Source: Defluviitaleaceae bacterium
GTDB taxonomy: Bacteria > Bacillota > Clostridia > Lachnospirales > WRAX01
NCBI GenBank assembly: GCA_009785595.1
Contig: WQVZ01000015.1
Coordinates: forward strand, 1 to 34,453
Direction: 5' to 3'
DNA: 34,453 nt
Part shown: positions 3,814 through 25,458 of the stretch, one piece after another
How the letters are laid out: the number at the start of each line of letters is the position of its first letter
Numbering within the stretch: position 1 is the first letter of the stretch
Notes under the pieces: model-generated
Seen by the model: the letters and a program-made list of their open reading frames with translations, nothing else
The model's database searches: none
Told to the model about the DNA's origin: nothing
Translations under genes and position numbers: made by a program

Positions 3814-6417
3814 CTAATTGCTTATCGCTTGCTTTGCCGCCGTCAGCGCATCCCCCACCCTAGCCGCATCTTTTATGCCCGCCTGGGCCATATTCGGCCG
3901 CCCGCCGCCGCCGCCGCCCGCCGCTTGGGCCGCCGCTTTTACCAAATTGCCGCAGTGTACACCGGCTTTTATTGCATCATCGGTGGCGCGGGCCAATATG
4001 CTGCCACTGTCACCGGAAATACCCGCCAACAGCACTATGCCGCCACCTAGCTTGTCCATTAATATATCAGACAGGTTGCGCAGAGCGTCAATTTCCGTAT
4101 TTTGTAACACAGCAGAAACCAAAGTGTGGCCGCCAATTTCTTCCTTGCCCGCCAAAATCTCATCCACGGCAGAGTTCGCATCCGCTTGACGCATTTTGGC
4201 CAGTTGCCGCTCGGCCTCCTTGGCAGCATTTATCAGCTGCTCCACACGGCTTATCACATTGGCCGCGGGGGTCTTTAAAAATGCCGCAATTTCACCCAAC
4301 TTTGCCTCGATGCTCTGATAATGAGCCAGAGCCGCACCGCCAACAACGGCCTCAATGCGTCGAACCCCGGCAGAAATACCACTTTCGGATAATATTTTAA
4401 AGGAGCCTATTTGTGCTGTGCCAGTTAGGTGAGTACCGCCGCAAAGCTCGACGGCTTGACCGCCAATGTCCACTACCCTCACGGTGTCGCCATATTTTTC
4501 GCCAAACAGGGCCACGGCCCCCATGGCTTTGGCTTCCCCAGGCGTTTTTTCGGTTATATCCACAGACAAATTGGCCAAAATTGCATCGTTTACGGTATTT
4601 TCAATACGAGCCAGCTCTTCCGCCGTAATGGCCGCAAAATGGGCAAAGTCAAAGCGCAGACGGTCGTGTGCCACCAAAGAGCCTGCTTGCTGCACATGGT
4701 TTCCCAGCACCTGGCGCAAAATATGGTGTAACAAATGCGTGGCAGTATGATGGCGGGCAATGTCAAGGCGCCTGGCAGCATCAATGCTTATGCTGGCTGT
4801 CTGACCAACTTCAATGCTTCCTGTCATCTTGCCTATATGGGCAAATTGTCCGTTGCCAGCTTTCATGCAATCCGTAACACGCACCTCGCCAGTTGCGGTT
4901 TTGATAGTAGCAAAATCCGCCTTTTGGCCGCCGCTTTCGGCATACACCGGGGTTTTGTCCAACAGCACGGCCACATCATCCCCACTTTGCGCCGCAATAT
5001 ATAGTATTTTTGCGTCTTCCACCGCATGGCAACAATATCCAACAAACTCCGCCGCAGGTACATCTATGCCATCAAAAACAGATCCTGCATTACCCATAAA
5101 ACCAGCATCTTCCCTGGCGGCACGGGCGCGGCTGCGCTGTTTTTCCATTTCTTCCTTAAAGCCCGCCTCATCTACCGCCAGGCCTTCTTCTTCCAAAATC
5201 TCCCGGGTAAGCTCCAATGGGAAGCCATAAGTATCATGCAATTTAAAAGCATCTGCTCCAGCAAGTACATTTTGCCCCGCCGTTGTCAACTCATCCACAC
5301 ATCGGCGTAGCTGCTCCATACCAGAGTCCAAAGTCTCATAAAATCGCTGTTCTTCTTGTTCTATCAGCCTGTGGATATAATCACGCTTTTCCGCCAGCTC
5401 CGGATATGCACCCTTAAAATTCTCGATAACTACATCTGCTAGTTTAGTTAAAAACAGGCCCTTTGCCCCCAAAAGTTTACCATGGCGGGCGGCACGACGC
5501 AGCAAACGGCGTAGCACATAACCCCGCCCTTCGTTGCTGGGCATTACGCCGTCAGATATCATAAATGTGACGGAGCGAGCGTGGTCGGTAATGATACGTA
5601 TAGAGGTGTCCATCTTTTCGGCGGCACCGTATGTCGCCCCAAAAAGATTACAAACCGCGTCACGCACAGCCTTCATGGTGTCCACATCAAAAAGAGAACC
5701 CACATCCTGCATCACCATAGCCATGCGGTCCAGCCCCATACCTGTGTCGATATTTGTTGTCTCCAGTTTGGAATAGCTACCGTCCTCCCCTTTGTTAAAT
5801 TGGGTGAACACCAGGTTCCAAACCTCTATATATCTGTCCTCATCCGCAGTGACACTGGCCATAAAATCATCCCCGCCATATTGCGGCCCACGGTCATAAT
5901 AAATCTCGCTGCACGGACCGCAAGGGCCAAGGGACAGCTCCCAAAAATTATCTTCCTTGCCCATGCGAAAAATACGATCCGCCGGCACGCCAACCTCTTT
6001 GTGCCATATGTCAAAGGCCTCGTCATCCTCTAAATATACGGATACATACAGTTTATCCATCGGTATTTTAAGCACATCTGTCATAAATTCCCAAGCCCAG
6101 GCAATGGCTTCTTTTTTAAAATAATCACCAAAACTGAAATTGCCCAGCATCTCAAAAAAAGTACCGTGGCGTGATGTTTTGCCCACCACCTCAATATCCC
6201 CGGTGCGCATACATTTTTGGCAGGTGGTCATACGCTTGGCGGGCGGCGTAGCCTGGCCGGTAAAATACGGCTTTAGCGGTGCCATGCCCGCATTTATCAG
6301 CAGCAGGCTTTTGTCATGCTCCGGCACCAAAGAAAAGCTGGGCAGCCGCAAATGCCCCTTGCCTTCAAAAAACGCCAAATATCTGTTGCGTATCTCATTT
6401 AACCCAAGTTTTTCCAT
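3814..6417 (-). CDS. alaS: Alanyl-tRNA synthetase
   Basis: 'LGLNEIRNRYLAFFEGKGHLRLPSFSLVP', 'HTATHLLHHILRQVLGNHVQQAGS', 'ELCGGTHLTGTAQIG', C-terminal 'GGGGGGRPNMAQAG'. ATG at 6417 preceded by GGAGG. Confidence 0.97.
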   Translation of the reverse strand: MEKLGLNEIRNRYLAFFEGKGHLRLPSFSLVPEHDKSLLLINAGMAPLKPYFTGQATPPAKRMTTCQKCMRTGDIEVVGKTSRHGTFFEMLGNFSFGDYFKKEAIAWAWEFMTDVLKIPMDKLYVSVYLEDDEAFDIWHKEVGVPADRIFRMGKEDNFWELSLGPCGPCSEIYYDRGPQYGGDDFMASVTADEDRYIEVWNLVFTQFNKGEDGSYSKLETTNIDTGMGLDRMAMVMQDVGSLFDVDTMKAVRDAVCNLFGATYGAAEKMDTSIRIITDHARSVTFMISDGVMPSNEGRGYVLRRLLRRAARHGKLLGAKGLFLTKLADVVIENFKGAYPELAEKRDYIHRLIEQEEQRFYETLDSGMEQLRRCVDELTTAGQNVLAGADAFKLHDTYGFPLELTREILEEEGLAVDEAGFKEEMEKQRSRARAAREDAGFMGNAGSVFDGIDVPAAEFVGYCCHAVEDAKILYIAAQSGDDVAVLLDKTPVYAESGGQKADFATIKTATGEVRVTDCMKAGNGQFAHIGKMTGSIEVGQTASISIDAARRLDIARHHTATHLLHHILRQVLGNHVQQAGSLVAHDRLRFDFAHFAAITAEELARIENTVNDAILANLSVDITEKTPGEAKAMGAVALFGEKYGDTVRVVDIGGQAVELCGGTHLTGTAQIGSFKILSESGISAGVRRIEAVVGGAALAHYQSIEAKLGEIAAFLKTPAANVISRVEQLINAAKEAERQLAKMRQADANSAVDEILAGKEEIGGHTLVSAVLQNTEIDALRNLSDILMDKLGGGIVLLAGISGDSGSILARATDDAIKAGVHCGNLVKAAAQAAGGGGGGRPNMAQAGIKDAARVGDALTAAKQAISN

Positions 6418-9285: not shown

Positions 9286-12200
9286 ATGCGTATTACACGC
9301 AAAACAAAAGCGGCCAAAAGGCCGCTACTTAGACGACGTTTGGTGGCACTTTTTGTCATGATGACAATGTTAATGTCCTATGCAACCACTGTGTTTGCGG
9401 CCATGGACAACAGTGCTGGCCCAGATGGCGAACCGGAACTGGGCATTGTGGTGATTTTTAACCCCAATGGCGGCCAAACGATATATGGCCATGAAACGCG
9501 CACCACACGAACCGGCGACGCCAACAGCGGAACAATTGGTGCAGGCTATATGCCGGAGCCCCCAACACATCCCGGAGTTTACAGATTTGTCGGCTGGACC
9601 ATGGTGCAGAACAGCATTGCCACTGCCGACAGGTTTACCGGTTCTACCGTGGTTAACGCACCAGGTATCACCGTATTTGCCTTATGGGGTCATCAGGTGA
9701 CATTCCATGGCGGCGGCGGCGCGCTTAACATCATCAACAGCCCCGGTTCTTTGGTGGGTTGTCATGGGCCGCGTCTTATAGTATCTGGGCAGTCCATAGG
9801 CTCAACCCCCGGCGTATTTGTACCCAATGCACCAAACCATCCCGGTCACACTTTTGCAGGCTGGTTTATAGACAATGACCCTGCACGGCCATTTACAGCT
9901 GCCACAGTTGTTAACGGCGATTTGGAAGTACATGCCCGCTGGGAAGAGATACCAAGACATACAGTGACCTTTGACGTACAAGGAGGCCAACTGTCAACAG
10001 AATTGGCGCCTCCCGCACCTGCTACGGTGAGGCATCCGCACTCTCTTACCCGTACGGCCGTACAAGGCAGAAGCGTTGAGCATTCGTCCAGAAATCCATA
10101 TTTCCTTAACCAGGGTATTGGCTGGCCGCGCTCCGCACCGGAAGTACTACCCGCCGGCCCAACCGCCGGTATGACGCTGGAAGGCTGGTGGACACAGCCA
10201 AATGGCTGGAATGGCACAGGAGATCGCTGGGCGCCCGCTGGTGTGCTTAATCTTGCAAACGAATCTGTGCTGCCACAGCCCGGTGGCGCAGCAACCACCG
10301 TGGTTACAGAGGATATTACCGTTTTTGCCAATTGGGTGTATCGTGTTACATTCCATCCAAACGTTGGTTATATGAATCTTGGCCATGCCAATTCCCTATA
10401 CGATGCGGGCTTTCCAAATCCCCGTGTTGCCGATGTCAATCGCAACCACTTCCGCGACCTAACAGTACAGGGCGGCACCATTAACGCCAATGGTCAGTTG
10501 TATAACCGTAATTCCAACACCGCGCAGCCTGTGGGCATGCCCGCCGATAATATTATGATAAGGCCCGGCTTTATATTTATGGGCTGGTGGAATATGCAAC
10601 TGAACCCAAGCGTAGCCATGGGCAACGAACCGCCGGAAGCCCAGGAATTTTTAGGCACCACCCCTGTAAATACCAGCAAAACGGTGTATGCCCGCTGGAT
10701 ACCCCGCACCCATGTAACAATTACCTTTGATACCAACAACGGGCAATGGGTGGCAGACGACACAGACGACCGCTATGTAAACCTGCCGTCAGGTGCATAT
10801 ATTAACAACTACGGCCCTGCATCCATGCCGGCAATGCCGTTGGTGCCGCCGGCTCCGGGTTATATGTTTGCCGGATGGTTTGTATGTCCCGATGGTACCG
10901 GCGACCGTTTTACCCCGTCAACACAGGTTCCCGATGACATAACCGTATACGCCCGCTGGCTGCCGTATATCACCCTGGCGGTGTGTACCAACGGCGGAAC
11001 ATCAAATCTTATACGCTATCGTAACTTCCCCGTGGGTGTTACTTTGTATGATATGAATCTTATATGGCGCGACCATCACGGCCCGCCAACAACCACCGGA
11101 GCCCAATTAAACCTGTACGATCTCGTATGGATGGGCAATAGCGGCGTTACCACTAGGCCAGGACATCACTTAAACGCGCCACAAGTATGGAACACCGCAG
11201 CCGATGGCAATGGTGACTTGTTTACCAGATTGATGCCCATCACACAAGATATGGCCGTAAACGGCGTGTTTACCATTTATGCCCAATGGGCCATAACCGT
11301 AATATTTAACGACAACCGCAGCAGCATTGGGGCGGGCACCAATGAAGATGACAATATTTTAGGCAGAAACGCCGCAGGTGTAAATACCGCTGCTCATCGC
11401 ACCCAGGTTTTGCTTGGCAGATCATTTGAAAACAACCACCTGCACCCCAATACGCACCCAAGCACGCACCCGGCTTCGCCTAATTTCCCAATGATAGGCA
11501 GAATGGTAAGCCCGCAGGACACCATACTTGACCTAACCTTTTCCAGTGCCAGCATTAACACATTTGTGCGCGGCTGGAACACCCAACCCGACGGACTTGG
11601 CGAATGGTTCTATCACGACACCATTATAACCTCCGGGCCTCTCACTCTTTATGGTATATGGTCAGAAACCCTGGCCTTCCACCCGGGTGTGGCACCACCA
11701 TCCGCCATACCATACGGTCACAGATTATCACCCATAACCCCATTTACCCCCGGCCCTCTTGCCGAAGGCCATTTTGCAAATGTGGATGAAAGATTTGGCG
11801 GCACAGATCCACAATGGCCAGGGTTTACCTTTGTCGGGTGGAGTGATCAACTTAACGGCGGCGTAGGCAGCCAAGATATAATTCCGGGTATGCCCAGAAC
11901 CTTCCCATTCACCATATACGCCCAATGGCATGCGCTTTTATGGTTTGACGCTACCGGCGGAATGATAACACCGGATGTGGGGCCTGCTGTTCCAGAAATG
12001 CTGTCAAGTGCCAGGGTTTTTGTTCCTCTTGCCGGTGCAATTGTTAACACCCCGGCACGCCAAAACTGGCAATTTGCGGAATGGAACACCAACAGGTGGG
12101 GCCTGAGAGACGACGACGGCCTTGTGTACAATACCGGCACCGTTGTCACCGTTACCCGCGACAACAGAGATGCACCAATAAACGGCGAAAGGTTGTTTGC

Positions 12201-14655
12201 CCAATGGGCCGCCAATATCAGGTTTGATGAAGGCGATGCTTTGGTTGCCGGTGGTGTTGGTACCCTTGTTGGCTATATACACGACATACCGGAGCTTGGT
12301 AATGTTGTAGACCATAACATGGGCTTGATGCCTGTTCCGACTCATCGTCCCGGCTATACCTTCACCGGCTGGGAAGTGTGGGATTATTCAGCCAATGGCG
12401 GAGCCGGCGGTTATGTGCCTTTCACTCAAAATACCGTAATTACAGACAATATGCGCTTTGTTACCGGTGCCGGCGGCGGAAGATATATTCATGTTATAGC
12501 CCGATATACCGACAGCATCCACACACTGACCATACAAAACGAATCTAATGACCCATTAGACCCATTCCCTGCAACTCCACTGCCAACAGGTCAAACCGCA
12601 CCAACAAGCCAGATACCCTTTAACCAATCCGTAACACTTGCACCGGGAACCAAAACGGGCTGGACCTTCCTTGGCTGGAGGTTGCTGGCAGACCCGGCGG
12701 GTGTGGCAACCATAACAGGAACACAGTTGCCTCATGCATTTAACATGCCGGATGCTAACAGAACCTATGTAGCAGTGTGGAGCAGGAATGTTCACACACT
12801 GACCATAACAAACGAATCTAATGACACATTAGACCCATTCCCTGCATCTCCGACATGGGTAACAACCCAAACAGCGTCAGGTCAAGTGCCGTTCGACCAA
12901 TCTGTAACACTTGCACCGGGATCTGTTGCAGGCTGGACCTTCCTTGGCTGGAGATTGCCGGCAGACCCGGCAGGTGTGGCAACCATAACGGTGCCTCCTG
13001 CTCATCAGTTCTACATGCCGGATGCAAACAAGGCCTATGTGGCAGTGTGGAGCAGAAATGTTCATACACTAACCATACAAAACCACCCGGCAGGTGTGGT
13101 CTTATCCACCACCACACCACCGCCATTACAAACCACATCAGGCTCACGCCCATTTGACCAAAGCATTACTCTAGAACCAGGCTATGCCCCCGGCTGGACT
13201 TTCCTTGGCTGGGTACGTGTAAACCATGGCGACACCTTTACACCACCCACAACAATAGCCGGACTGCTGCCCGCCAATCATCAATTTAATATGCCCGATG
13301 CAAATGTAACCTTTGTAGCCATATGGGGCAATGATGATGACGAGATAGGCATACCAAACAGCTTTACACTAACAATAAGCAACCACCCAACCACTGTTAC
13401 TCCAACAGACCAAACCTTGTCCGGTTCGCGCCTGTTTGGTCAAGACATAGTGCTGGAGGAAGGCACGGTGACGGGTTGGACATTTGTGGGCTGGAGACTC
13501 TACGGCACCAACGACGCACCTGTGTTAGACCGCGCCTTCACCATGCCTGCCAACAACGTACATTATGTGGCCGTATGGGAGGTAAATACTCACACACTGA
13601 CCATAACAAACGACCCGGCAGCCCATAACTTCCCGGCCACTCAAACACCAACCGGCCCAAGAGATTTTGGCGCAAACATAACATTGGTACCCGGTGCGGT
13701 GGAGGGCTGGACATTTATAGGCTGGAGACTGCACGGCACCAACAATACACCTGTGCTTAACCGCACCTTCACCATGCCGGACAATGATGTACATTATGTG
13801 GCCGTATGGCGCCTTACCACAACTGATGATGGCACCACACAGAACGGCCCAACAACAGGCTTTCCTGAAACAACCGGACCAGTGGAAAGACCAGAGCGAG
13901 AGCCTGAACCAGAACCGGAGCCGGAGCCTGTTGTGAAAGAGCATCACGCCTATATCATCGGCTTTGAAGATGGCTATGTGCGCCCAAGGGCACACGTAAC
14001 CAGAGCCCAAGTGGCCACCATCTTCTTCCGCTTGATATCTGATGCGGACAGGGAACACTATTGGATGCAAACCAATCCATTCCCGGATGTGGTGCTGGAA
14101 AACTGGTTTAACAATGCCGTGTCCACCACAACCAACGCAGATATGTTTACCGGCATGCCGGATGGCACCTTCCAACCAAATCGCGCTATCACTAGGGCAG
14201 AATTGACCGCAGTGGTGGTACGCTTTATGGGCGTAACCCACAATGGCACAACACCAATGTTTAACGACATAGCAGGCCATTGGGCAGAGAGATATATCAA
14301 CATTGCCGCCCACCACGGCTGGGTGTTTGGTTACGAAGGTCTTAACGGACGCTTCCTGCCAGACCAGCCCATAACCCGCGCAGAAACAGCCGCCATCATA
14401 AATCGTATGCTTGGCCGCCTGCCGGAAACCCCGGCCGACCTGCTGCCAAACGACATGCGCATTTGGCCGGACAACATGAACACAAACACATGGTATTACC
14501 TATATATCCAAGAGGCCACCAATTCTCACTACTATGTAAGAAAAGCGGACGGCATCCACGAAACATGGGTACAAATGCTTGTGCCGGAGCGCCCCTGGGT
14601 GCTTCTGGAAAGACCGGAATCCGTGCCACAAGACATCTTTCGTGTAATGAACTAA
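9286..14655 (+). CDS. Secreted 1789-aa InlB/Flg_new (Listeria-Bacteroides) repeat protein with C-terminal SLH domains
   Basis: Signal peptide 'RRRLVALFVMMTMLMSYATTVFAA'; many repeats of the type 'VTFHPN...PGYxFxGWW...ITVYARW'; EPEPEPEP linker; three SLH-like modules (GFEDGYVRPRAHVTRAQVATIFFRL / GMPDGTFQPNRAITRAELTAVVVRFM / GLNGRFLPDQPITRAETAAIINRML). SD GGAGGG. Confidence 0.95.
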   Translation: MRITRKTKAAKRPLLRRRLVALFVMMTMLMSYATTVFAAMDNSAGPDGEPELGIVVIFNPNGGQTIYGHETRTTRTGDANSGTIGAGYMPEPPTHPGVYRFVGWTMVQNSIATADRFTGSTVVNAPGITVFALWGHQVTFHGGGGALNIINSPGSLVGCHGPRLIVSGQSIGSTPGVFVPNAPNHPGHTFAGWFIDNDPARPFTAATVVNGDLEVHARWEEIPRHTVTFDVQGGQLSTELAPPAPATVRHPHSLTRTAVQGRSVEHSSRNPYFLNQGIGWPRSAPEVLPAGPTAGMTLEGWWTQPNGWNGTGDRWAPAGVLNLANESVLPQPGGAATTVVTEDITVFANWVYRVTFHPNVGYMNLGHANSLYDAGFPNPRVADVNRNHFRDLTVQGGTINANGQLYNRNSNTAQPVGMPADNIMIRPGFIFMGWWNMQLNPSVAMGNEPPEAQEFLGTTPVNTSKTVYARWIPRTHVTITFDTNNGQWVADDTDDRYVNLPSGAYINNYGPASMPAMPLVPPAPGYMFAGWFVCPDGTGDRFTPSTQVPDDITVYARWLPYITLAVCTNGGTSNLIRYRNFPVGVTLYDMNLIWRDHHGPPTTTGAQLNLYDLVWMGNSGVTTRPGHHLNAPQVWNTAADGNGDLFTRLMPITQDMAVNGVFTIYAQWAITVIFNDNRSSIGAGTNEDDNILGRNAAGVNTAAHRTQVLLGRSFENNHLHPNTHPSTHPASPNFPMIGRMVSPQDTILDLTFSSASINTFVRGWNTQPDGLGEWFYHDTIITSGPLTLYGIWSETLAFHPGVAPPSAIPYGHRLSPITPFTPGPLAEGHFANVDERFGGTDPQWPGFTFVGWSDQLNGGVGSQDIIPGMPRTFPFTIYAQWHALLWFDATGGMITPDVGPAVPEMLSSARVFVPLAGAIVNTPARQNWQFAEWNTNRWGLRDDDGLVYNTGTVVTVTRDNRDAPINGERLFAQWAANIRFDEGDALVAGGVGTLVGYIHDIPELGNVVDHNMGLMPVPTHRPGYTFTGWEVWDYSANGGAGGYVPFTQNTVITDNMRFVTGAGGGRYIHVIARYTDSIHTLTIQNESNDPLDPFPATPLPTGQTAPTSQIPFNQSVTLAPGTKTGWTFLGWRLLADPAGVATITGTQLPHAFNMPDANRTYVAVWSRNVHTLTITNESNDTLDPFPASPTWVTTQTASGQVPFDQSVTLAPGSVAGWTFLGWRLPADPAGVATITVPPAHQFYMPDANKAYVAVWSRNVHTLTIQNHPAGVVLSTTTPPPLQTTSGSRPFDQSITLEPGYAPGWTFLGWVRVNHGDTFTPPTTIAGLLPANHQFNMPDANVTFVAIWGNDDDEIGIPNSFTLTISNHPTTVTPTDQTLSGSRLFGQDIVLEEGTVTGWTFVGWRLYGTNDAPVLDRAFTMPANNVHYVAVWEVNTHTLTITNDPAAHNFPATQTPTGPRDFGANITLVPGAVEGWTFIGWRLHGTNNTPVLNRTFTMPDNDVHYVAVWRLTTTDDGTTQNGPTTGFPETTGPVERPEREPEPEPEPEPVVKEHHAYIIGFEDGYVRPRAHVTRAQVATIFFRLISDADREHYWMQTNPFPDVVLENWFNNAVSTTTNADMFTGMPDGTFQPNRAITRAELTAVVVRFMGVTHNGTTPMFNDIAGHWAERYINIAAHHGWVFGYEGLNGRFLPDQPITRAETAAIINRMLGRLPETPADLLPNDMRIWPDNMNTNTWYYLYIQEATNSHYYVRKADGIHETWVQMLVPERPWVLLERPESVPQDIFRVMN
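12515..13815 (+). repeat. Five tandem 'HTLTI(Q/T)N...GWTFLGWR...MPDANxxYVAVW' coding repeats
   Basis: Repeated DNA and protein blocks starting near 12520, 12792, 13063, 13364 and 13590. Confidence 0.85.
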
Positions 14656-17744: not shown

Positions 17745-18296
17745 ATGAAAAGTCAAGATTTCGGCGCAGAGGTGACAGTAGTGCGTACCGTCTTTTTACG
17801 CAAAGTAAATGTGGCCGCGGCGGCCTTTTTGATATTCCTAAGCATACAGGGCCTTGTAACCACGCTGTTTTCATCACCAACCACAGCCGAACTTGCCGTC
17901 GGCATAGCCCTCATCCCGGCCGCCCTGGTCTACGGTTTTGCCGCCTTAAACAGCTATATGTCCAAAATTTTTGTTTACGAGCGTGGTTTAATTATAAAAA
18001 GCCTTCTAAGCAAGAAGGCCTTGGGGGACGCGGACATAAAGCGCGTGGGTTTTTATCGGGCCAATATGCGTAAAATGCAAATAACCATAGTACACAAAAC
18101 CGGCAAGCCCATCACAATAAACACCGCAAAATATCAGAATTACGAACCTGTTGTGGAATACCTAAAGAAATTTAAGCAGGGGCCAACCCCCGCAGTCGTC
18201 CTCGGGCGGCAAAATGCCGCCCCTACAGTTGCACGCGATACCCAATATAATATCCAGCCCGGCGAAAACCCAAATGCAAAGCCGCACCAAGATTAA
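17745..18296 (+). CDS. Membrane protein with PH-like domain, unknown function
   Basis: Two hydrophobic segments (VAAAAFLIFLSIQGLVTTLF, LAVGIALIPAALVYGFAAL) then 'IFVYERGLIIKSLLSKKALGDADIKRVGFYRANM'. Start set at ATG 17745 after GGGGTG. Confidence 0.65.
   Translation: MKSQDFGAEVTVVRTVFLRKVNVAAAAFLIFLSIQGLVTTLFSSPTTAELAVGIALIPAALVYGFAALNSYMSKIFVYERGLIIKSLLSKKALGDADIKRVGFYRANMRKMQITIVHKTGKPITINTAKYQNYEPVVEYLKKFKQGPTPAVVLGRQNAAPTVARDTQYNIQPGENPNAKPHQD
18204..18226. repeat. GGGCGGC-AAAAT-GCCGCCC(C)TAC palindromic repeat
   Basis: 7-bp perfect stem; inverse orientation of the GTAGGGGCGGC motif seen near 15912. Sits at the convergent gene ends. Confidence 0.65.
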
Positions 18297-21674: not shown

Positions 21675-23522
21675 TTATTCTTCGTCAACCTCTTGGTAAT
21701 CCCCTTCCACAGTGCCATCCTGGCCCATGTCCTCCGGCTGGCCTTCCCCTTGCTGCTCTGCCGCGGCCTGGTATATCCTACCGGCCACCTCTTGCATCAA
21801 CTCCATCAGGGCGGCAATGTCCGCTTGCAGGGTTTGGGCATCTTCCTGTGTCATGGTATCTATATTCATGCTGTCGTTGGTAGATTTTAGTTTGCCAAGT
21901 GCCGCCTCTAAGGCCGCCGCATCTTCGCCTGTTATGGTCTCTTCGTTATCTTTCAGCAGTTTTTCCGTTTGGAAAATGGCACTATCAGCCTCGTTTTTCA
22001 CATCAACAACTTCTTTGCGCACGCGGTCTGCTTCTTCAAATTGCTTGGCCTCGTCCACGGCTTTTTGTATGTCATCGTCGCTCATTTTGGATGAGGCGGT
22101 GATGGTTATTTTCTGCTCTTTGCCGGTACCCATGTCCTTGGCAGATACGTTTACAATGCCGTTGGCGTCAATGTCAAAGGATACTTCTATTTTCGGGACA
22201 CCGCGCGGGGCGGGCAATATGCCGTCCAGGCGGAATTCGCCCAATTTTTTGTTGTCCCGGGCAAATTGACGTTCGCCCTGTACCACCACAATATCCACGG
22301 CGGTTTGATTATCAGCCGCTGTAGAGAATACCTGCTTGGCATTGGCCGGTATGGCTGTATTGCGATCCACCAAGCGGGTGGCCACGCCGCCAAGGGTTTC
22401 TATGGCCAGGGAAAGAGGTGTTACGTCCACCAAAATAAGGTCTTTAAGAGCCTCGTCACCGGAAAGCTTGCCACCCTGTATAGCAGCACCAACGGCCACA
22501 CATTCATCGGGATTGATGCCCTTAAAGGGTTCGTGACCGGTAATACGCTGCACAGCGTCTTGTATGGCTGGTATGCGGGTGGATCCACCCACCAACAACA
22601 CCTTGCCCAATTGTGCCGCGGATATGCCGGCGTCTTTAAGGGCCACATTTACAGGCTCTATGGTTTTTTCCACCAAATCTGCAGTTAGCTCGTTAAGCTT
22701 AGCCCGTGTAAGGCGCATGTCCATATGCTTTGGCCCGTCCTGGTTGGCGGTAATAAAAGGTATATTTATATCCGTCTGAGTTACGGTAGAAAGCTCTTTT
22801 TTGGCCTTTTCCGCCGCTTCTTTTACCCGTTGCATAGCCAGCTTGTCTTTAGCCAGGTCGATCCCTTCCACATTTTTGAACTCTTTTACCAGGTGCTCAA
22901 TAATGCGCTCATCAAAATCATCGCCGCCAAGGCGATTTACGCCGTTGGTAGACAATACCTCCACCACGCCATCACCAATATCAATGACAGACACGTCAAA
23001 AGTGCCGCCGCCAAGGTCAAACACCAGTATTTTCTGCTCTTTTTCGTTGTCCAGGCCATAGGCAAGGGCGGCAGATGTGGGCTCGTTTATAATACGCTTT
23101 ACATCAAAACCCGCTATTTTACCGGCGTCTACCGTAGCTTGACGCTCATCATCGCCAAAATATGCCGGCACAGTGATAACCGCCTCGGTAACAGGGCCGC
23201 CAAGATATGCCTCGGCATCGGCCTTTAGCTTCTGCAAAATCATTGCGGAAATTTCCTGCGGCGTGTACGCCTTGTCGTCTATGGTGATTTTCTGTTTTGT
23301 ACCCATAAGGCGTTTTATGCTCATAACTGTATTGTCCGGGTTTGTAATGGCTTGGCGCTTGGCGGCTTCGCCTACCAGGCGTTCACCGGTTTTGGTAAAG
23401 CCCACAATAGACGGCGTTGTGCGGCCGCCTTCACTGTTTGCAATAACCACAGGCTTGCCGCCTTCCATTACCGATACACATGAATTTGTGGTTCCCAGAT
23501 CAATTCCTATAATTTTTGCCAT
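21675..23522 (-). CDS. dnaK: Molecular chaperone DnaK (Hsp70)
   Basis: '[42 protein letters not shown]', '[28 protein letters not shown]', C-terminal [19 protein letters not shown]. Confidence 0.98.
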
Positions 23523-23563
23523 ATTTTCTATTCCTCCTGTTTAAATGAATTGGTTCGACTGTG

Positions 23564-23639
23564 ACGGAGCGTTTACGCTCCGTGGTTTTTCACGCTTTGT
23601 TTACAAAGCGTAGGTTTTCACGTTGCGTGAACGCAACGT
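23564..23639. repeat. Triple tandem hairpin array, exact 28-nt period
   Basis: ACGGAGCG-TTTA-CGCTCCGT (23564-23583), ACGCTTTG-TTTA-CAAAGCGT (23592-23611), ACGTTGCG-TGAA-CGCAACGT (23620-23639); linkers GGTTTTTC and AGGTTTTC. Confidence 0.95.
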
Positions 23640-23684
23640 TGTCGCTGAAACGCGCGAACACCCCGTCAATTTGTGTAAGCTTAA

Positions 23685-24188
23685 TCAATTAGCCACGACC
23701 ACCATAGAGTGTCGTATGACGGTATCTCCGTGCATATATCCCGCCTGCAACTCCTCCACCACCTGGTTTTTGTCAAGACCTTCGTCTTGTATATGGGATA
23801 CGGCGGCATGATATCTTATGTCAAATTGTTGTCCGACGGCATCAATTTTCGCAACACCCAAACCACCTAACACAGTAGTCAGCTGGTTTTGTATCATCAG
23901 CACACCGGCGGCAAAACCATCGGCGGCATCCACATTTTGCAGGGCCCGCTCCAAATTATCCACAACAGGCAACAGCGCAACAATCGCCTCCCGTAGGCCT
24001 TTGTTATACATCTGGCCCATTTCTTTTGCGGTGCGGTTGCGATAATTTTCAAATTCCGCCGCTTGCTGCTTTATTTTATCCAAATACAGGGCATTAAGTT
24101 CTGTAATTGCTGTCAGCTCATCGCAACCCCCAGCTTCTTCACCCACATTCTCTTCCGCCACTTCTCCATATAATTCCTTGTCGTCCAT
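23685..24188 (-). CDS. grpE: Nucleotide exchange factor GrpE
   Basis: 'YRNRTAKEMGQMYNKGLREAIVALLPVVDNLERAL' and 'GLGVAKIDAVGQQFDIRYHAAVSHIQDEGLDKNQVVEELQAGYMHGDTVIRHSMVVVAN'. Confidence 0.95.
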   Translation of the reverse strand: MDDKELYGEVAEENVGEEAGGCDELTAITELNALYLDKIKQQAAEFENYRNRTAKEMGQMYNKGLREAIVALLPVVDNLERALQNVDAADGFAAGVLMIQNQLTTVLGGLGVAKIDAVGQQFDIRYHAAVSHIQDEGLDKNQVVEELQAGYMHGDTVIRHSMVVVAN

Positions 24189-24202: not shown

Positions 24203-25231
24203 CTACCTATCAATTTCGCTTAAAGTCAAATTTTTAACAATAGCCCCCAGCACCGTCATCACTTGAGAATAATCCATCCTGGTGGGGCCTATAATTGCAA
24301 TGTTGCCGGAAAAATGCTCATTTATGCGGATTTTCGCTTTGATAACCGAACAGTCCCGCAGCATGGTATTTTCATTTTCGCCGCCAATAATCACCGTAAT
24401 TTGCTCCGAATTATCCGCCAACAATGTCAGCAAGCTCTCTTTTTCTTCCAGCGTGCCCACAACCGCCCTGGCTTTGCCCAGGTCGGCAAATTCGGGAAAA
24501 TCCAATATATTCTTCATGCCGCTGGTGTATACCTGCACATTGTCGGCAGAGGCCAAAGCTGCATAAACCGCATCCATCAGGGGCGACACCAAGCGGACGT
24601 CAAAACCAATCTCCGCAAAACGATGGCGGGCCATACCCGTAAAAAGCTCACACAAATCATCGGCGCTGGCCCCCTTAAACAGGTTTGTAAGCTCCACAGA
24701 CATCCGTCCGGCCACTCCGTGGTTTGGTGCCTGGTGCACAATCACCATCTGGTTTTTCACGGCTTTAAGGTCTGTAATAAGCATCATGGCCATAGCATAG
24801 TCATCCACCGGCACAAGCTGTATATGCTGTATTTTATGCCGCCTTACCAAAGGCTCGGCGGCCACAGCCGTATAGCTGGTGACGTGGCTGACAGCTCTGG
24901 CCACATCCCGCATCATTTGGTCAATGCGGTTTACATCCATGGCAATTGCCCTCTTTAAGTACTCTCTATGATCCTTATTTAAGGGCTTTTTAGGCATTAC
25001 CCGGTCTACATACAGACGATATCCTTTATCCGACGGCACCCGTCCGGAAGACGAATGGGGTTGCAATATATAACCCATATCCTCCAAATCGCTCATTTCA
25101 TTACGAATAGTGGCCGACGACACGCCCAGGTCATACCTTTTGGCAATGGTGCGGGAGCCAATAGGCTCTGCCGAAGCAATATAATCGCTGACAATGGCTT
25201 CGAGGATTTTAGTTTTTCTGCGGTTAAGCAT
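24203..25231 (-). CDS. hrcA: Heat-inducible transcription repressor HrcA
   Basis: 'MLNRRKTKILEAIVSDYIASAEPIGSRTIAKRYDLGVSSATIRNEMSDLEDMGYILQPHSSSGRVPSDKGYRLYVD'. The listed start (25444) overruns the CIRCE/promoter; ATG 25231 has SD AAGGGGTG. Confidence 0.96.
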   Translation of the reverse strand: MLNRRKTKILEAIVSDYIASAEPIGSRTIAKRYDLGVSSATIRNEMSDLEDMGYILQPHSSSGRVPSDKGYRLYVDRVMPKKPLNKDHREYLKRAIAMDVNRIDQMMRDVARAVSHVTSYTAVAAEPLVRRHKIQHIQLVPVDDYAMAMMLITDLKAVKNQMVIVHQAPNHGVAGRMSVELTNLFKGASADDLCELFTGMARHRFAEIGFDVRLVSPLMDAVYAALASADNVQVYTSGMKNILDFPEFADLGKARAVVGTLEEKESLLTLLADNSEQITVIIGGENENTMLRDCSVIKAKIRINEHFSGNIAIIGPTRMDYSQVMTVLGAIVKNLTLSEIDR

Positions 25232-25272
25232 ACAATCACACCCCTTGCAGGCGGCACTGTGCCGGTTTGTTG

Positions 25273-25299
25273 TTAGCACTCGTACCAAGTGAGTGCTAA
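25273..25299 (-). promoter_or_regulatory. CIRCE operator
   Basis: TTAGCACTC-GTACCAAGT-GAGTGCTAA, exact match to the CIRCE consensus (9-N9-9). Confidence 0.98.
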
Positions 25300-25307
25300 C
25301 CGAGAAT

Positions 25308-25336
25308 AATATACCATGGCAGGGATTATTTGTCAA
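25308..25336 (-). promoter_or_regulatory. hrcA operon sigma-A promoter
   Basis: On the minus strand TTGACA (25336-25331), 17-nt spacer, TATATT (25313-25308), with CIRCE just downstream. Confidence 0.85.
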
Positions 25337-25429
25337 GAGTTTTTTTAACAATATTGCCGCGGCATAGACAGCCCATTTGCGGCCCATTTGCGGCCCATTT
25401 TTTGGTTGCTTTTTATTATTTATTTTCTG

Positions 25430-25458
25430 TTGACATATCACCAAATAAGGTATATACT
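25430..25458 (+). promoter_or_regulatory. Sigma-A promoter reading away from hrcA into the non-coding region
   Basis: TTGACA - 17 nt - TATACT. Confidence 0.75.

Follow-up and report, generated by a model that had tools for sequence, protein, structure and literature searches.

Does a regular cluster of hairpins in front of a chaperone gene serve that gene, or does it belong to something larger? The question is raised by the spacer between grpE (23685-24188, minus strand) and dnaK (21675-23522, minus strand) in the window, the 34,453-nt stretch of DNA analyzed here. An earlier note described three perfect hairpins in this spacer, each with an 8-bp stem and a 4-nt loop, and proposed that they could control mRNA processing, stability or temperature-responsive translation of dnaK. 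The hairpins are confirmed at 23564, 23592 and 23620, with spacings of exactly 28 and 28 nt. The 8-bp stem and 4-nt loop hold as a steric description; formally, each unit is a palindrome with 9 bp and a 2-nt loop, of the form ACG-NNN-CGT, two bases, ACG-N'N'N'-CGT. The three units, to which no strand is assigned, are a GAG unit at 23564-23583 (ACGGAGCGT-TT-ACGCTCCGT, or ACGGAGCG-TTTA-CGCTCCGT in the 8-bp form), a CTT variant at 23592-23611 (ACGCTTTGT-TT-ACAAAGCGT, or ACGCTTTG-TTTA-CAAAGCGT) that recurs at C1:56205, and a TTG unit at 23620-23639 (ACGTTGCGT-GA-ACGCAACGT, or ACGTTGCG-TGAA-CGCAACGT). They are joined by the linkers GGTTTTTC (23584-23591, minus strand) and AGGTTTTC (23612-23619, minus strand). 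Since grpE and dnaK lie on the minus strand, the order of the hairpins is reversed in the mRNA, where the linkers read GAAAAACC and GAAAACCT, respectively. The transcript thus runs, 45 nt after the grpE stop codon, through the leading TTG unit, GAAAACCT, the CTT unit, GAAAAACC and the final GAG unit, and then over 41 nt to the dnaK ATG. One outer flank, GGTTCGACTGTG (23552-23563, plus strand), holds a copy of an inverted terminal motif, read outward as TCGCAGTCGAACC, that is common to many arrays, and the opposite flank, TGTCGCTGAAACGCGCGAAC (23640-23659, minus strand), holds a second, degenerate copy. No curated Rfam family matched the window at the gathering threshold, and ARAGORN found no tRNA-like element, which the GGTTCGA in a flank had led us to suspect.

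The search for the unit pattern that the earlier note suggested showed how widely these hairpins are distributed. Across the whole genome (1.69 Mb, 92 contigs), the pattern returned 37 units, compared to 2 for the reversed pattern. A census of 82 contigs (1.656 Mb; the last contigs are outside the count) picked arm pairs by the constant letters alone and scored complementarity of the NNN triplets afterwards. Of 51 arm pairs that fit the constant letters, 45 had perfectly complementary triplets; the genome read backwards gave one arm pair, which was not complementary, and three Markov genomes gave none. The units are therefore far beyond chance. Eleven triplets occur among the 45 perfect units: GAG (16), TTG (7), CTG (6), CTT (6), CCG (3), GTC (2) and five singletons. 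Altogether, about 50 units lie in arrays of one to five hairpins at about 18 places in the genome, with linkers of 6-8 nt joining neighboring perfect units and a regular period of 27-28 nt. Since the same unit is found at about 18 places across the genome, the array is not a dnaK feature.

When the arrays are oriented so that their linkers read A-rich, unit order and linkers align, and the arrays are homologous. Of the 15 multi-unit arrays, 12 have a GAG unit behind a GAAAAACC-like, A-rich linker, among them the one at dnaK, where this linker is in the form most frequent ahead of a GAG unit. The GAG unit is nearly always the final one, and the positions ahead of it are taken by TTG, CTG, CCG, CTT or AAG units. 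Homologous arrays with varied units in the earlier positions thus have stems that differ at corresponding positions. Many array flanks carry the outward-facing, inverted TCGCAGTCGAACC-like motif in degenerate form. Its CGAAC occurs in 10 of 36 array flanks against 0.43 expected, a comparison whose P value is optimistic because this 5-mer was picked post hoc among many and the flanks are partly non-independent. In the copies at C33 and C16:21221 the two flanks pair, forming an outer stem that encloses the hairpins. No parent insertion sequence or other element sharing the outer motif was found outside the arrays. At C16:12652-12779 (L033, 4053-4180), a different hairpin, GCCCGCAA-N8-TTGCGGGC, is flanked by two ACG units.

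The genes next to the arrays are core genes, including lepA/hemW, atpH/atpA, frr/uppS, grpE/dnaK, spoIIE, a gene with a SpoIID domain, purF and a transketolase gene, as well as ftsZ (C26) and rnpA/yidD (C22), which were assigned by reading translations. Fourteen arrays lie in co-directional gaps, three in convergent gaps and none in divergent gaps; one array at a contig end is outside this count. On crude gene calls, 24% of intergenic bases lie in divergent gaps, which gives a P of about 0.01 for the absence of all 17 arrays; counted by number, 15% of the gaps are divergent, and P is 0.065. Most arrays start 1-48 nt past the upstream stop codon, with the array at C6:29903 (125 nt) as an outlier. 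Relative to their genes, about seven arrays read in the sense and three in the antisense direction, without significant bias.

Comparison of the grpE-dnaK spacer in relatives, also suggested by the earlier note, brought up no array. It is absent from all 29 dnaK upstream regions of relatives in the family and order, and relatives whose DnaK is 66-90% identical have none at dnaK. The readable atpH-atpA and frr-uppS spacers of relatives are likewise without an array, and in several relatives frr and uppS almost touch. In 394 further genomes of the order, all from outside the genus, unit-like matches were no more frequent than chance and never exceeded one per genome, as judged by a pattern that recognizes arrays with these constant letters only. 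An 18-letter pattern gave 14 single matches over 85,488 species, and in none of these was the first unit complementary throughout. Scans of viral sequences yielded one chance match and one lone hairpin but no array, and BLAST against plasmids and phages gave weak matches alone (E of 1 or more). No direct counterpart, a tandem array of hairpins with compensatory changes, turned up in a literature search.

These distributions bear directly on the regulatory reading, in which the hairpins would act in cis on the heat-shock operon mRNA and control dnaK processing, stability or temperature-dependent translation. The array is indeed transcribed in the right place, and puts three stable stems into the grpE-dnaK spacer. 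However, the earlier note had itself named scattering over unrelated loci without positional or strand preference as an outcome that would speak for a mobile repeat rather than a dnaK regulator, and the same arrays do occur at about 18 unrelated junctions without significant strand bias, while the relatives' spacers lack them. In our folding model the dnaK ribosome site (complement of 23533-23538) is left free, with no pairing to the hairpins, and the accessibility of this site rises only gradually between 25 and 55 degrees, which argues against an RNA thermometer. REPs stall ribosomes when they lie within 15 nt of a stop codon (PMC12306157), a range that the array, 45 nt past the grpE stop, exceeds. 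Moreover, the operon has a classic CIRCE: a perfect operator, TTAGCACTC-N9-GAGTGCTAA, lies at 25273-25299 (no strand assigned), at hrcA (24203-25444, minus strand) and outside the repeat, with an ordinary, good operon promoter at 25336-25308 on the minus strand. From its sequence, this CIRCE would be the ordinary control site of the dnaK operon. We therefore rejected an RNA thermometer or dnaK-specific regulator, and control of dnaK by the array appears very improbable. Bidirectional or antisense intrinsic termination is scarcely credible. On the plus strand, the first hairpin followed by GGTTTTTC was called terminator-like, but that reading runs antisense to the two genes. Read in the mRNA sense, the linkers are rich in A and the array received no terminator-like call. 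Other arrays lie within core operons (lepA-hemW, atpH-atpA), in which a transcription stop would do harm. What is possible is that the array modestly affects how stable the grpE portion of the mRNA is.

How perfect pairing persists while stems change is the second question raised by these hairpins. The earlier note held that stems which differ and still pair reflect more than simple tandem duplication, and the covariation bears this out. Across 25 distinct units with 2-nt loops, 98.7% of cells pair, five of the nine pairs change on both sides, and covariation amounts to 0.42 versus 0.097 in shuffles. The copying of arms, which the note had offered as an alternative to selection, has also left a candidate trace. 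At C14:22733, a unit arm is identical to the facing arm of the adjacent unit, and that unit is now unpaired; copying of arms from unit to unit would produce such identical, non-pairing arms.

A duplicated junction allows the rates of change to be compared within one pair of arrays. The array at C6:29903 lies inside a diverged copy, of about 210 nt, of the frr-array-uppS junction at C6:37740. In L031 the frr 3' end, array and uppS 5' end are seen as a diverged duplicate at about 3940-4160 and 11760-11980, between two ABC transporter genes. The two arrays are identical at 68 of 74 positions (92%), versus about 68% for the flanks (Fisher P 4e-5). In our own count from the alignment, the differences fall on four of five loop bases, one linker base and only one of 54 stem bases, so that in this pair the stems have changed more slowly than the flanks. 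Such a difference between array and flanks indicates that either selection or template-switch correction maintains the stems. The first loop reads TT in one copy and AA in the other, a difference that a single template-switch inversion would give, and template switching produces both compensatory stem changes and loop inversions (PMC8794818). Based on these sequence patterns, we favor template switching, perhaps together with selection on structure, as the process that would maintain pairing; selection acting on the structure would produce a very similar pattern.

Several known families of dispersed repeats invite comparison. Like REP/BIME elements (PMC3733652), the units are short palindromes with 8-9 bp stems that are dispersed, often grouped and non-coding, and, as with REPs, the arrays prefer unidirectional and convergent gaps, where they lie near the 3' terminus of the gene upstream. 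The copy number, about 50 units in some 18 loci, is low for a REP family. Unlike the GTAG and CGTC super-families, the arrays have neither an unpaired GTAG or CGTC tag nor a CCA tail; no constant tag of either kind was found at the unit flanks, which are variable, with A-rich linkers. CGTC families have A-T at the first and second stem pairs as well as the CCA tail, whereas the first pair here is A-T and the second is C-G in 24 of 25 units. REPs form head-to-head dimers, in contrast to the regular tandem arrays with 6-8 nt linkers seen here, in which covarying triplets also change the stems within one array and to which no transposase is linked. REPINs and their RAYTs (PMC3116915, PMC8266576) are similarly dispersed, non-autonomous palindromes, and a RAYT-like gene is present in the same genome. 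MITEs resemble the arrays in being small and non-coding, with an outer inverted motif and insertions missing from relatives; they differ in that the outer motif here is weak, no parent element was found and the interior is a hairpin array. The mitochondrial repetitive and double hairpin elements (PMC2800124) are a possible parallel, as small hairpin clusters across intergenic DNA, whereas the present arrays lie in a bacterial chromosome and have a regular period and constant ACG/CGT ends.

Two genes for Y1-type transposases were found. The first (C33:2000-2383, L152) is short and IS200-like, reads YVH in the HUH-motif region by eye, and is possibly degenerate or domesticated. The second (C61:4303-4854, L180) encodes a RAYT-like protein of 184 aa that falls below the Pfam cut-off but shows typical motifs by eye. 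Neither gene adjoins an array or a unit, and a link of either to the arrays was therefore rejected. The RAYT-like coding sequence itself holds a GGGCGGATTC..ATCCGCCC hairpin at 4451, which belongs to another dispersed class, and the gene more likely belongs with that class than with the ACG arrays. That the arrays are plain REP elements mobilized by this gene is thus quite improbable: the gene exists and the location bias is REP-like, but no array lies near it, and the arrays are without a GTAG tag or head-to-head dimer layout.

Other hairpins are abundant in this genome. A second dispersed class, GGGCGGCAnnnTGCCGCCC, occurs at 18204-18222 of the window and about 40 other places, and its sister class, GGGCGGATTCYATATCCGCCC, has about 16 copies. 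Clusters of very long perfect hairpins, with stems of 27-30 bp or more, mostly 3-nt loops and differing sequences, were seen at C1:3921-4776, C1:26455-26673, C1:33385-33562, C56:4138-4247 and C31:17118 (L082, L083, L175, L149), and are perhaps more surprising than the ACG arrays. A 38-nt palindrome with a variable loop, TTTTGCTTCGCAAAA-N8-TTTTGCGAAGCAAAA, is repeated at C3:9486, C3:23987 and C12:31359. In the window, a gene at 9286-14652 encodes a 1789-aa surface protein with SLH and Listeria-Bacteroides repeat domains, and contains small hairpins at 12544 and 12817.

In our judgment, the dnaK array is quite likely one copy of a lineage-specific, non-coding, dispersed repeat of a REP/MITE-like kind, which its array architecture and covarying cores set apart as an unusual REP relative. 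A typical copy would consist of imperfect inverted TCGCAGTCGAACC-like motifs that face outward around two or three (at most five) hairpins spaced by 6-8 nt of A-rich linker. Such copies would have come to rest behind stop codons, where short gaps separate co-transcribed or convergent genes and one more cluster of mRNA hairpins may be tolerated. New copies would arise by copying of whole arrays, as the one duplicated junction illustrates, and possibly by transposition in trans by a putative enzyme. The stem triplets would then drift while pairing stays, most likely by template switching during replication, which within a hairpin copies arm onto arm, with selection on structure perhaps assisting. 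At dnaK, the array would for the most part be carried along as a passenger, and any influence on the stability or processing of the grpE/dnaK mRNA would be modest at most.

Alternatively, the hairpins could be a family of structured RNA or DNA under genome-wide purifying selection, as the substrate of a cellular binding protein such as an RNase or nucleoid protein. The covarying stems, the near absence of stem changes (1 of 54 bases) in the duplicated junction, whose flanks have diverged by about 32%, the constant ACG/CGT ends with their regular 27-28 nt period and the confinement to transcribed gap types all fit this view. However, the distribution is patchy and limited to a single lineage, the triplets vary freely, the strand bias is not significant, single-unit arrays exist beside five-unit ones, and biased copying between arms would give the same pattern without a binder. 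We therefore consider it rather unlikely.

Returning to the dispersed repeat, we can suggest only tentatively that it represents a new kind of element, one with tandem hairpin arrays, fixed ends, free covarying 3-bp cores, arm-to-arm copying and a role as a selected protein substrate. If so, this genome would be a natural experiment on the upkeep of perfect palindromes. Covariation in stems is usually read as proving that an RNA structure is under selection; in this genome, about 50 short hairpins with 11 cores and stems that, in one duplicated junction, have outlasted their flanks present covariation in what is apparently a spreading repeat. The arrays would thus offer a compact system in which to separate template-switch correction from selection, and a caution for covariation-based RNA discovery.
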